DNA of 64,000 nt from Gemmata massiliana (GTDB lineage: Bacteria > Planctomycetota > Planctomycetia > Gemmatales > Gemmataceae), in the NCBI GenBank assembly GCA_000531095.1, contig HG799465.1, forward strand, positions 1,037,915-1,101,914, in the 5' to 3' direction. Positions 6,786-47,722 of the stretch are shown piece by piece; the first letter of the stretch is position 1, and every line of letters starts with the position of its first letter. A program made the translations under genes and the position numbers. The notes under the pieces are model-generated. The model made no database searches and was not told the DNA's origin. It saw nothing but the letters and a program-made list of their open reading frames with translations.

Positions 6786-6860
6786 TTGCGGCGGTAGGAT
6801 TTGAACCTACGACCTCCAGGTTATGAGCCTGGCGAGCTGACCGGGCTGCTCCACGCCGCG
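6786..6860 (-). tRNA. Initiator tRNA-fMet (CAT)
   Basis: Read on the minus strand this folds as a full cloverleaf with anticodon CAT in loop CTCATAA. The acceptor pairs CGCGGCG with CGCCGCA, so position 1:72 is a C x A mismatch, the hallmark of bacterial initiator tRNA. The D-stem (GAGC/GCTC) has the initiator-type A11-U24 pair. The T-arm is GTAGG-TTCAAAT-CCTAC and the discriminator base is A. CCA is not encoded. The anticodon stem is CCAGG/CCTGG, so two of the three usual G-C pairs (30:40, 31:39) are present while 29:41 is A-U. A strong terminator follows. Confidence 0.93.
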
Positions 6861-31197: not shown

Positions 31198-32994
31198 TCA
31201 CAAAGGGTCCGAAGGCGGGAACATCGAGCGCAGTAAGCGGGCAGAGAGGTCAAACTCGGGCGTAAAGCCCAACTCCACCATCGCAACCGTACTCACGCGG
31301 ACGTGCATCGATTTCACGGCACCGATCAGGTGCCCGTCAATGAACCCGCGGATCGGGCGCTTACCGTTGTGGTCCAAGCTCGTGAATCCGACCGACGTCG
31401 TTTCCGGGAGCGCGACCGGCTTCCAGAAGCGCGGGCGGAACACGTTCGACCCGGCCAGTGTGAACACCGGTGCGGTCAGTGGAACCGAGGTCGCGCCCAT
31501 CGCTCGAGCGTAAGCGCTCGACCCGGCGGGCGTCGCCACGAGCAACCCGTCGCCGACCACACGCGGCACCTGCGTTTTGCCGTCCACTTCGATCTTCAGC
31601 CACGCGGCTTGCCCGCTGTCGCGCTCCACCCAGGCATCGGCGAACGCGAGCGACTGCACGCGCTTGCCGTCCGGCAGCTCGGCGTCCACGCGGATCATCG
31701 GCATCCGGTACAGCACGATCTCGGTACCGTCTGGGTCCGGCGGGAGCGACTCGTTCATTAGGAACCCGAGCGTCCCCGCGTTCAGTCCCAGGAATGGGAG
31801 CCGCAACCGCCAGTAGTCGCGAATCGCCTGGAGCATCGTGCCGTCGCCCCCGAGCACGAGAATGTGCGTCGGGTCGCTCGATTCGAGCTTGCGGAACGGC
31901 TCCGCGGCCCGCAGCGCTTTTTCGCTCTTATCAGCCGTGACGATCTTCAACCGCGGCGCCCCGAGCCGCACGCGGGTTTCGCGCGGGGCGGACATGCCGG
32001 TGAACAGGCGGTAGCGCCGGATGTACTCCTCCACGTCGTCGGTCACGTCGGGGCGCGGCGAACCGCCCTGGAACACGCGGAGCCGAATGTCTTCCGTAGC
32101 GACGTGCCCGTCGACCGCGACGAGCCGGCACACCGGCGGCAGGTCGGCCGGGTCGGGCGGCGCCTCGGGCGAGTGCAGCACGACGAACCGGTGACTGGTC
32201 CAGGCGTCCAACCCCAGTTCCCATTTCGTGTGAATGGCGGATTCTCCCGTGCGCCCGCCCACAACGAACTCCGCGGGGATCACGTGCCACACCTCGCCGC
32301 GGTCCGCGAGCAGATCGTTGAACGAGTAGTGGGGTGTGAATACCGCGTCGTCGAGGTCGGACAGGTCGACCGTAACCCCGGGGAGGTCGCGAAATGCAAG
32401 ATCCGCCATTACCGCGCGGTGGACCGGCTTCGCGTGCTCGGTTTCCGGTGTGTCGCACCGCGGACCGGTGGGCCGCACGACGACCTCGTCGAACCCGCAC
32501 CCGCGCAGGAGCGTCGCGACCCGGCGGTGGTAGGTCGTGGGTGGGTCGAAACTTCCCGTAAACACGGCCACTTTGCGCGCGGGCTTCGCGCGAGTATCAC
32601 GCTCCGGTTCTTCGCGCCGCGCCGCTCGCACCACGACAGCAACAGCCGCGTCGAGGAGCGGAAACACAAGCAGTGCGGAAAGCCCTTCGGTGGGGAGAGG
32701 CTCTGTCTGAAACCCCTCTCCAACCCCTCCCCTAAACGGAGAGGGGCTTAAAACCGTCGCCGATTGCTTCGCGCTGGTTGTATTTGGTTCTGTTCCCCCT
32801 TCAGGGAGGGGGGATGGGGGGGTAGGTTCTGCACCCACAATCACCTTCGCCACAGTGCCGGGATAGAGTCGCTCCGTGACGTGCAACCCTGCTCGCGCCA
32901 CATCGCCCTCAATCAGCACGGTTAACCCGAGTTCAACGGCTCTTGCAATAAACCCCGCGACGGCCGCGACGTCCGCCCCCCGACCGCGCCCCAC
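31198..32994 (-). CDS. Fusion: CobT C-terminal remnant, NadD-like domain, NAD kinase-like domain
   Basis: From GTG 32994 the protein has 598 residues. Residues 1-130 resemble the end of CobT (GRGRGADVAAVAGF, VLIEG, LLVFPLLDAAVAV) but are interrupted by a repeat-derived Pro/Gly segment (56-97). Residues 141-333 are NadD-like (VAVFTGSFDPPTTYH, where Thr replaces the first His of the usual HxGH; VEEYIRRYRLF). Residues 345-595 are NAD-kinase-like, with LGGDGTMLQA (GGDGT 382-386), LNAGTLGFL and ATPAGSSAYA. All three activities touch nicotinate/NAD nucleotides. The upstream CobT N-terminal gene overlaps by 73 bases in another frame. Catalytic competence of the NadD part is uncertain. Confidence 0.75.
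   Translation of the reverse strand: MGRGRGADVAAVAGFIARAVELGLTVLIEGDVARAGLHVTERLYPGTVAKVIVGAEPTPPSPLPEGGTEPNTTSAKQSATVLSPSPFRGGVGEGFQTEPLPTEGLSALLVFPLLDAAVAVVVRAARREEPERDTRAKPARKVAVFTGSFDPPTTYHRRVATLLRGCGFDEVVVRPTGPRCDTPETEHAKPVHRAVMADLAFRDLPGVTVDLSDLDDAVFTPHYSFNDLLADRGEVWHVIPAEFVVGGRTGESAIHTKWELGLDAWTSHRFVVLHSPEAPPDPADLPPVCRLVAVDGHVATEDIRLRVFQGGSPRPDVTDDVEEYIRRYRLFTGMSAPRETRVRLGAPRLKIVTADKSEKALRAAEPFRKLESSDPTHILVLGGDGTMLQAIRDYWRLRLPFLGLNAGTLGFLMNESLPPDPDGTEIVLYRMPMIRVDAELPDGKRVQSLAFADAWVERDSGQAAWLKIEVDGKTQVPRVVGDGLLVATPAGSSAYARAMGATSVPLTAPVFTLAGSNVFRPRFWKPVALPETTSVGFTSLDHNGKRPIRGFIDGHLIGAVKSMHVRVSTVAMVELGFTPEFDLSARLLRSMFPPSDPL
32709..32829 (-). repeat. In-frame GC-rich repeat, copy 1 (inside the CobT/NadD/NadK gene)
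   Basis: This segment includes a 28-base core (32721-32748) identical to 47063-47090, two short inverted repeats, and a matching right end. On the minus strand it is translated as a Pro-rich stretch ending SPSPFRGGVGEG. The same peptide ending appears in an unrelated gene at 47052-47172. Confidence 0.85.
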
Positions 32995-33539
32995 GCACCC
33001 ATGAGGTCGTCGGTCCGGTCCGTGTCAACGGCCAGAACTCGATTCGCGACGTGGGCACTTTCCGCACCGAGCGCATCAACCGCCACCAACCTCATCCCGT
33101 CCGCGTGCGACTGTTCCGCTTCCTTCTGCCCGACTACGAACGCGGTGCGGAATTCGTCGACCGTTAGCGCCGGTTGCTTCGTGAAATCGCGCGAACCCGG
33201 GCGCACCTTGCGACTCCGGTAGCGCGGCGATTCCGGCAGCGCATCAGCCCGCGAACCGACGTCGACCAGCACCAATTCCGTGTGCGTGGACTTCGCAACG
33301 ACTGCGGTCGCGGCTCCACCGTCCGCGATGTGGTGGATCGTGGTCCCGACCCGACTTTCCGCGTCCGGCCCGTGGTCGGCCGCGAACAGCACGAGCCGGC
33401 GCGGGGTCGTGACCGGTTTGAGCGCCTGCTGAACAACGCACAATCGCTCGGCCAAGTAATGAAGTGTGCCCAACCCACCGGGGGGTGAAGCGAGGTTGGC
33501 GAGGTGCGCGAGTATTTCGGCGTGAGTGGGGTGGGCCAT
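32922..33539 (-). CDS. cobT: CobT-like N-terminal half (probably frameshifted)
   Basis: This 205-residue frame begins at ATG 33539. It matches the N-terminal half of nicotinate-nucleotide:dimethylbenzimidazole phosphoribosyltransferase: PPGGLGTLHYLAERL, RRLVLFAADHG, HIADGGAATAVVAKSTHTELVLVDVGSRADAL and, near the end, DDLMGAWG. Full CobT is about 350 residues. The C-terminal half is encoded in another frame by the overlapping downstream gene. Either one frameshift has split the gene or translation shifts at the GGGGGG run in the overlap. The usual GIGNTT region is not recognisable, so cobamide function is doubtful. Confidence 0.65.
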   Translation of the reverse strand: MAHPTHAEILAHLANLASPPGGLGTLHYLAERLCVVQQALKPVTTPRRLVLFAADHGPDAESRVGTTIHHIADGGAATAVVAKSTHTELVLVDVGSRADALPESPRYRSRKVRPGSRDFTKQPALTVDEFRTAFVVGQKEAEQSHADGMRLVAVDALGAESAHVANRVLAVDTDRTDDLMGAWGAVGGRTSRPSRGLLQEPLNSG

Positions 33540-33815
33540 GAAACGACATCCGCGGGCCGTGAACGGAACGTGTTGATTGTACTGGCGCGAGGCAGGGTTG
33601 TTTCTCGTCCGCTTACCAAGAAACCGAAGCAACACTGCGCGAGCGCGCACCAGTGTAAACGAAGTTTCTCCCCCCCCGTGCGCCTGCTTTTGCGATGTCG
33701 GGTAACAGTTTTTTTGTCATTTTTACCCGCCGCGCGGTTGCGTTTCGCCAAATATAGCGCACTTATATTCACCATATCCGCTCGTAGTGAACGGATGAAT
33801 CCATGAGGGCGTACC
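33540..33815. other. Intergenic region upstream of the Y-family polymerase
   Basis: This 276-base gap separates the divergent cobT-like and polymerase genes. Its right part is AT-rich for this genome and holds the palindrome at 33751-33769. I see no gene in it. Confidence 0.5.
33751..33769. promoter_or_regulatory. AT-rich palindrome upstream of the Y-family polymerase
   Basis: AATATA (33751-33756) and TATATT (33764-33769) are perfect inverted arms with a 7-base spacer, 47 bases before the GTG start of the polymerase gene. The position fits an operator, possibly SOS-type, but it is not the known Escherichia coli or Bacillus LexA box. Confidence 0.35.
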
Positions 33816-46757: not shown

Positions 46758-47585
46758 CTACGAACGAAGCGAAGCGTAGTAAGCGATCCCGTGGCCGATG
46801 AGCAGGGCGTATTGCGGTTCCGGGAGGGCGTAAAGCGGGCCGGTCCACGCGGGCAGAGAAATCGCCCCGTCCGCGCACAGTTGGCGTAAGCAGTCGTGGA
46901 AAGCGCCGATCGTGAGCGAGTCCGTCAGCGCGAGGGCACGGAACAGTTCTGGCAGCGGGCAATCTGTGGGACCGGAGCGGTCCGCGAGGTACGCGAGCAC
47001 CGCCGGCGCGAGGGTGGCGGGCATTTCGAGAACGGCGGTGGCCTCGGGCAGCAATCCCTCCCCAACCCCTCCCCTAAACGGAGAGGGGCTGAAATCCAGC
47101 GCTGAGGGGGCGCTTGGCTCTGGCTCTGCTCCCCCTTCCTTTTTAGGGAAGGGGGCTGGGGGGTTAGGTTCTTGGATCTTCGCCGCTGTCACACTCGGCA
47201 GAACACGGGCGACGGCATCTTTCAGCCCCTGCAAACTGTCCGCCATCCGGCGCGCGGTAGAGAGCAATTCGCCGATCTCACCCTGCCGGGCTTCGAGCAC
47301 GCGGACAAAGTCTTCGAGTACCTGTTTCGGGTTCACGGCCGCGAGCAGGAACTCCCAGCCTTTTTCGGTCAGACCGTAGAGGTCGCGTGGCGTTTTGGTC
47401 TTCGAGTCGGTGCCGACGACGCGCACGAGATCGTCCGCGAGGCACTTCTGGGCCGCGGGTTTGGCACTGGAAGCGTTCGGGAACAAGCCCGGCTCGGTCT
47501 TCCCCGCGAACAGCGGTAAGCCGATCGGCTCCGCGGCGCAGCGCCCGAGCGCGTCCAGGATTTGTTGCGTGAGCTTATCGGCCAC
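46758..47585 (-). CDS. Winged-helix/coiled-coil protein partnered with the ATPase
   Basis: GTG 47585 with GGAAG upstream gives 275 residues; TTG 47609 is an alternative. The N-terminal part (about 1-85) looks like a winged helix (QKCLADDLVRVVG, RDLYGLTEKGWEFLL), and residues 85-135 form a coiled coil (VLEARQGEIGELLSTARRMADSLQGL). A Pro-rich repeat-derived insertion (about 139-178) follows. The C-terminal part contains VLAYLADRSGPTDCPLPELFRAL and FHDCLRQLCADGAISL, a second winged-helix-like unit. This layout suggests a regulatory or loading factor for the ATPase encoded directly downstream. No family is recognised. Confidence 0.65.
   Translation of the reverse strand: MADKLTQQILDALGRCAAEPIGLPLFAGKTEPGLFPNASSAKPAAQKCLADDLVRVVGTDSKTKTPRDLYGLTEKGWEFLLAAVNPKQVLEDFVRVLEARQGEIGELLSTARRMADSLQGLKDAVARVLPSVTAAKIQEPNPPAPFPKKEGGAEPEPSAPSALDFSPSPFRGGVGEGLLPEATAVLEMPATLAPAVLAYLADRSGPTDCPLPELFRALALTDSLTIGAFHDCLRQLCADGAISLPAWTGPLYALPEPQYALLIGHGIAYYASLRS
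47052..47172 (-). repeat. In-frame GC-rich repeat, copy 2 (inside the winged-helix gene)
   Basis: Homologous to 32709-32829, with the identical 28-base core at 47063-47090 and the same right boundary ending ggttaggttct. It is translated in the same reading frame and orientation as copy 1, giving NPPAPFPKKEGG ... SPSPFRGGVGEG. Confidence 0.85.
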
Positions 47586-47722
47586 GGTTCCGCTTCCGTG
47601 CGGGGGCAAAAAACTGATTCGCGCTAGATGCTACGCGGAACCGGAGTCGCGTTGCAACCCCGACTCGGGTGCGTCATGATTGGCGCGTAGGCTTTCAAAT
47701 AAGTTGACGCAGGAGGAAGCAC

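Follow-up and report, generated by a model that had tools for sequence, protein, structure and literature searches.

Rickettsia palindromic elements, reportedly treated by Ogata in 2000 and again in 2002, belong to a reduced intracellular genome, whereas the planctomycete genomes considered here are 9-10 Mb in size. In-frame palindromes are best known from Rickettsia, where, according to the account in PMC10969869, the elements are about 150 bp long, occur in one genus, and in many cases lie in frame in unrelated ORFs and are fused to the gene product (PMC10969869). Bacterial MITEs are characterized in the same source as small, inverted-repeat elements of high copy number with occasional in-frame fusions (PMC10969869). 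REPs are described as mostly intergenic sequences of 20-40 bp that carry a GTAG or CGTC tag and often lie near RAYT genes (PMC3733652). Intragenic REPs of the GTAG and CGTC families are presented there as short palindromes, single or in dimers or groups, within the ORFs of several species; they are said to be most numerous in O. terrae and R. conorii and to lie in many cases in replication or repair genes, REPs occur at about the same recB site in two Xanthomonas species, and members are reported in planctomycetes (PMC3733652). Finally, PARCELs are introduced as 25-residue tandem amphipathic domains in ORFs without assigned functions (PMC2996958).

The window, that is, the whole stretch of 64,000 nucleotides analysed here (G000:C4:1037915-1101914), comes from a 9.27-Mb draft genome in 22 contigs (G000) and was compared with two sister genomes, G008 (1 contig) and G012 (3 contigs). 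Its positions 32711-32828 and 47053-47170 (copies 1 and 2; G000:C4:1070625-1070742 and G000:C4:1084967-1085084) are copies of one dispersed element, both in frame on the minus strand, as a sequence-only reading of the window had claimed in describing two homologous segments that share orientation and reading frame in unrelated genes. Pairwise comparison aligned the segments over about 120 nt and revealed an identical 29-nt core, CCAACCCCTCCCCTAAACGGAGAGGGGCT, which corresponds to hairpin A and lies on the plus strand at 32720-32748 in copy 1 (G000:C4:1070634-1070662) and at 47062-47090 in copy 2 (G000:C4:1084976-1085004). The peptides read in frame, PTPPSPLPEGGTEPNTTSAKQSATVLSPSPFRGGVGEG for copy 1 and PNPPAPFPKKEGGAEPEPSAPSALDFSPSPFRGGVGEG for copy 2, are Pro/Gly-rich, share a common frame, and carry the C-terminal end SPSPFRGGVGEG, confirming on the minus strand the Pro-rich stretch with a common end that had been noted before. 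The copies differ in build: copy 2 has the usual B hairpin, and copy 1, which matches model R1 from end to end, appears to be two hairpin modules fused together when set against the sister genome.

Copy 1 lies inside ORF 31198-32994 (-), which combines a CobT C-terminal piece with NadD-like and NadK parts, and it precedes the last CobT segment. The CobT N-terminal part of this gene (32922-33650, -) is in another frame in this assembly, since a C/G run at about 32976-32981 (-), outside the element, differs from that of the sister genome by one base in length. The CobT/NadD/NadK identity given earlier to this host held, and the CobT break, then attributed to the insert, is the one-base change in that run. 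Read across 31198-33650 (-), the CobT-NadD-NadK frame breaks in the run, and in several relatives the three parts form one long open frame (841 codons in G008, 777 in G012, and 779 in G002). Copy 2 lies in a linker of the conserved protein encoded by ORF 46758-47609 (-), hereafter host 2, which has no Pfam family at E 0.01 and whose named relatives are Gemmataceae and other planctomycete records, which points to a planctomycete close to Gemmata.

A genome-wide search with the 29-nt core recovered 69 copies in G000 at three or fewer mismatches, 24 of them perfect, compared with 0 copies of the reversed core pattern used as a control in the same genome, a count above chance that far exceeds the control. 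A covariance model built from 17 full copies gave at least 138 matches in G000, at least 137 in G008, and at least 129 in G012 at E <= 0.001; these counts are lower bounds, since 150 of more than 2200 first-look candidates were scored per genome, and such numbers in each of three genomes set the element apart from Rickettsia palindromic elements. At E <= 0.01, the model found matches in 19 of 41 genomes, namely 15 of 19 within the genus and 4 of 22 outside it. Within the genus, 14 genomes had 25 or more matches, with at most about 86 candidates scored in each, and the weaker of these counts may include related families. One of the four genomes outside it, G034, from the same class and another order, yielded 64 weak matches to the element model, which may represent a different, perhaps related, palindromic family.

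The unit is approximately 100 or 124 nt long and consists of two GC-rich hairpins and a variable linker. In the coding orientation it reads AACCTAACCCCC, hairpin B (CCCCTTCCC..GGAAGGGGG), the variable linker, GGTTTTAAG, hairpin A (CCCCTCTCCGTTTAGGGGAGGGG), and TTGGGGAGGGGTT, and the linker is where the ~124-nt and ~100-nt subtypes differ. Its termini are imperfect AACCTAACCCC / GGGGAGGGGTT ends, with TTAGGTT in 15 of 17 aligned copies and GTAGGTT in the other two (L012 and L017). In an RNAalifold consensus of 17 copies, two hairpins form and the outer ends pair, and the paired palindromes thus sit in a larger fold, a property shared with GTAG REPs and BIMEs. Adjoining C/G-rich blocks are frequent, just 25 of 103 full copies having none within 40 nt on either side. 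Moreover, the consensus, in which undecided positions were filled by hand for translation, can be read without a stop in a single frame of either strand, giving PNPLTPFPKKEGGTEPNTTGTTPQAAVLSPSPFRGGVGEG and, from the opposite one, NPSPTPPLNGEGLKTAACGVVPVVFGSVPPSFLGKGVRGLG; these frames are open in 61 and 63 of 83 long copies, and the other four frames in 4 to 14.

The reading frames of the copies and their surroundings were surveyed in three 400-kb runs (G000, G008, and G012) and in 77 stretches of about 8 kb around the best-scoring G008 and G012 copies, with 300-nt flanks scored by a codon model trained on long ORFs. Removal of 22 of 136 clusters (16 with low scores, 4 duplicates, and 2 with N) left 114. 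Of the 88 copies from G008 and G012, which are mostly best-scoring rather than random and for which the 300-nt flank test disfavours gene ends, 57 are in frame and stop-free with coding sequence on either side, and 5 weak copies are likewise in frame and open. A further 12 lie between coding flanks that share a strand but not a frame, 2 have flanks on opposite strands, 10 have one coding flank, and 2 are in noncoding sequence. Some of the 12 different-frame copies may sit in gaps between adjacent genes. In these two well-assembled sisters, the host frame is preserved by most of the sampled copies that have coding sequence of the same strand on both sides: 57 of 69 are in frame and open (p = 5e-17 against 1/3), as are 46 of 57 when orthologous pairs are counted once (p = 3e-13). 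The element is therefore like Rickettsia palindromic elements in lying in frame in many unrelated ORFs, although the corresponding figure in draft G000 is 3 of 13. It is unlike REPs in that 57 of the 88 copies sampled lie within genes and in frame, and in its unit of 100-124 nt. Of the 57 in-frame copies, 33 use the '+2' frame and 18 the '-1' frame, so that 51 of 57 are read in the consensus open frame of either strand, the remaining 6 using other frames; one open consensus frame per strand, with both used, is a further departure from the Rickettsia elements.

The in-frame hosts are largely ordinary proteins. A Pfam scan covered 49 of the 57 host entries and assigned a family at E 1e-5 to 44 of the 49; the entries set aside were those of three very long proteins, the pair belonging to a single 1022-residue protein, a short fragment, and two that nearly duplicated scanned ones. 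These hosts include, with gene names beyond the Pfam labels being interpretation, phenylalanyl-tRNA synthetase beta (PheT), RNase R-type, Mfd-type, RecD2, SelB, ParA/MinD-type, TilS-like PP-loop, MgsA/RarA-type, QueG, and polyA-polymerase-head proteins, as well as an AcrB-type transporter, CobW, a sulfatase, PMT-type proteins, and four DUF1549/DUF1553 proteins. In lying within ORFs as short palindromes the copies resemble intragenic REPs. They resemble PARCELs as dispersed DNA of dyad symmetry that is, judging from the reading frame, translated, and differ from them in being mostly single inserts in ordinary enzymes.

Orthologous sites without the element were also found. The CobT-NadD-NadK gene carries it in G008, as a longer version of the window insert, and lacks it in G012, by DNA comparison, and in G002. 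parA carries it in G008, and the G000 gene lacks it, is 105 nt shorter, and has flanks that are 96-97% identical; pheT carries it in G012, and the genes of G008 and G000 lack it and are 96 nt shorter. Host 2 has the element in G000, G008, and G012, while in other species its linker holds other GC-rich repeats in several cases and none in some, and the compact homologues L326, L329, and L332 have almost no linker. RNase R, ParA, and an ABC protein present the same picture across species. Homologues free of the segment thus exist for both window hosts (G012 and G002 for the first; L326, L329, and L332 for the second), a further likeness to Rickettsia palindromic elements, and the analogy with those elements that the sequence-only reading drew is borne out by in-frame insertion in unrelated genes together with homologues that lack the insert. 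Of the two outcomes that this reading had set against itself, an ancestral segment shared by homologues of both hosts or a copy number at chance level, neither was obtained. As a separate observation, the parA, RNase R, ABC, and host-2 loops contain different GC-rich repeats in different species, for example those encoding SPSPLAGEG-, PSLQGGG-, and PPSLKGRGE-type peptides.

Together, these results are likely to reflect a REP/MITE-like non-autonomous palindromic repeat that has multiplied in Gemmata-like genomes and is tolerated in frame within genes. A repeat of about 100 or 124 nt per unit, often with further hairpin modules, would have multiplied through these genomes, occupying genes as well as intergenic sites. 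Insertion would hardly distinguish genes from other DNA, selection would remove copies that fall out of phase or into folded cores, and those that survive would be translated into disordered, Pro/Gly-rich loops tolerated by the host. Individual sites may turn over when a new copy arrives beside an old one and recombination follows between shared C-rich arms, a step proposed because orthologous sites hold different units.

Comparison of orthologous sites among G000, G008, and G012 mostly found the element in both members of a pair, with absences under-counted because the stretches were picked for holding copies. Seven distinct orthologous site pairs have opposite orientations, one of them with a unit too weak for the similarity comparison (score 31 against a cut of 60), and several same-orientation pairs match the 124-nt subtype with the 100-nt subtype. 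In-place inversion of the element was considered and rejected, as the other six opposite-orientation pairs are no more alike than random pairs: their unit similarity is 0.75-0.89, compared with a median of 0.81 (5-95% range 0.66-0.90) for random pairs, and the median for same-orientation orthologous pairs is 0.875 (n = 36). In three of these six pairs, a unit of 118-124 nt faces one of 100 nt. Because their similarity is at the random level and unit lengths are unequal in three of them, the opposite-orientation pairs are read as independent occupation or replacement. In every one of the 20 G008-G012 rows, which cover 18 distinct sites (17 of them unequal in length), the length difference is divisible by 3; the same holds for only 20 of 40 N-free rows involving draft G000, duplicates included. 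Divisibility by 3 was dropped as independent proof of selection because unit length is about equally regular in the other classes (23 of 31) and in the in-frame class (45 of 57).

An extension of this turnover that is possible, if doubtful, is an interchangeable-linker system, in which different palindromic families would take over core-protein loops one after another, in whichever orientation, without upsetting the host frame; the mobiliser would recognise either G-rich DNA of the loop or the ends of repeats already in place. If this were true, palindromic repeats would be a main, continuing source of inter-domain linkers in the clade. A related and unlikely alternative is a domesticated linker cassette, with insertion into loops favoured and with the peptide or mRNA hairpin serving a function such as domain spacing or translational pausing. 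It would fit the different units, orientations, and families at the same loop and the element's position at one common loop in four distant DUF1549/DUF1553 paralogues (L205, L217, and L213 in G012 and L193 in G008; 40-52% identity), and it fits poorly with the many homologues that have no insert, with relaxed constraint on the peptide, and with in-frame frequencies close to those of a neutral survival model. As to constraint, pN/pS was 0.69 for the element and 0.14 for the host over 10 hand-chosen site pairs between G008 and G012, and pS was 0.16 and 0.31, respectively; 4 of the 10 pairs join different subtypes and thus not all derive from one insertion. From these ratios the element peptide looks loosely constrained, and the lower pS of the element may reflect conservation or homogenisation of its arms. 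As to frequencies, a neutral model in which 1/3 of genic hits are kept predicts in-frame shares of 0.57, 0.65, and 0.71 at coding fractions of 0.80, 0.85, and 0.88, the measured fractions being 0.837-0.873, and the observed share is 57 of 88, rising to 62 when the five weak copies are counted. If one sixth of genic hits survived, the prediction would be 0.40-0.55 (0.49 at a coding fraction of 0.85), below that observed.

Returning to the tolerated repeat, we infer from the open reading frames that the inserts are translated, and each would be expected to lengthen its host protein by a flexible loop of some 30-40 residues. The earlier suggestion that the segment adds disordered peptide is supported by prediction: an AlphaFold model of host 2, itself weak (18 sequences, mean pLDDT 73, pTM 0.39), has pLDDT <50 at residues 154-164 and 169-196, covering most of the element, with better-predicted parts around it.

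It is very unlikely that the inserts mark gene decay, as had also been suggested, and that the genes carrying them are pseudogenes. Signs of decay come from G000: the CobT part in the window is out of frame, RNase R (C1:89799-92118) and an ABC protein (C16:6827-8324) are split around the element, and, of 13 copies with coding sequence of one strand on both sides, 10 have a shifted or interrupted frame. Of the 26 G000 copies in all, 3 preserve an open host frame, 3 are in frame but contain a stop, 7 are shifted, 12 have a coding flank on one side, and 1 is a weak in-frame copy. Because the RNase R and ABC frames are open in the sisters and split in G000, draft assembly indels in GC-rich repeats are suspected as the cause of these broken frames; real gene loss may also contribute. 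Against decay, element-bearing frames are open in G008 and G012, including those for PheT, RNase R-, Mfd-, SelB-, and ParA-type proteins; the longer CobT-NadD-NadK insert of G008 sits in an uninterrupted 841-codon frame, the pheT copy of G012 is in the only pheT match of that genome, and the host pN/pS over the 10 G008-G012 pairs is well below 1. The decay proposal is thus not supported. The findings may also be a practical warning for draft assemblies, in which genes appear broken at such repeats.

That the hairpin segment is excised before or during protein synthesis, by a splicing-like process, ribosomal bypass, or peptide excision, and is absent from the protein is highly improbable. The hairpins themselves (folding z of -1.3 to -3.4 for four folds) and the copy at residues 390-430 of the RNase R-type host, inside an RNB stretch that matches over 249-621, would suit such removal, yet segments removed from RNA or skipped by the ribosome need neither frame nor stop-free reading, and 57 of 69 copies have both. 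Extremely improbable is an ancestral linker or domain of the hosts, alike by composition only, since the Pro/Gly-rich host 2 linker, variable in many species of the genus, is outweighed by 29-nt cores that are identical between unrelated genes and present in either orientation, by empty orthologous sites, and by different repeats in the same loop of different species.

For the preferred reading of a tolerated, dispersed repeat, mobility is argued from dispersal and empty sites, because neither a target-site duplication nor a tie to PF01797 was detected. RAYT was rejected as the mobiliser following a PF01797 (Y1/RAYT) search of 41 genomes and inspection of three G000 neighbourhoods: G008 had 0 hits among 5 candidates scored, despite its at least 137 element copies; hits occurred in G009 (7) and G014 (5), genomes without an element match; and none of the three G000 PF01797 genes is flanked by the element, the nearest copies lying about 0.9 kb and about 3 kb away, with none within the 20 kb examined around the third. 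No target-site duplication was detected in a weak test on the 25 clean copies of 103 (direct-repeat mean of 1.0, compared with 0.65 in shuffles, maximum 1.32), and the flank consensus contains only a short GAAG preceding AACC on one side. The element is not assigned to the REPs because it has no conserved GTAG end (2 of 17 copies) and no RAYT tie. It is MITE-like in its small size, its high copy number, and its in-frame fusions, and perhaps, given its imperfect ends, in its inverted-repeat build, and differs from MITEs in the absence of a detected target-site duplication, with the search for a parent transposon consisting of that for PF01797. It works like Rickettsia palindromic elements and intragenic REPs, yet it is assigned to neither; compared by description rather than by sequence, it departs from the former in its extra hairpin modules and in the occupation of one loop by different units.

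What is newest is the scale, the single open frame of the consensus on either strand, and the occupation of shared loops by other units, orientations, or families. High-copy in-frame palindromes, many in core enzymes, are thus found in a bacterium that is apparently free-living and has a genome of 9-10 Mb, whose sister species offer both filled and empty sites and in which both strands serve as coding, so that the idea that selfish DNA gives rise to new protein segments becomes directly testable. A literature search with the element peptide strings returned no papers, and one of titles and abstract beginnings returned nothing on these elements. In a scan of the window, no Rfam family matched the element; the sole match at gathering score was a tRNA gene at 6786-6860 (-).
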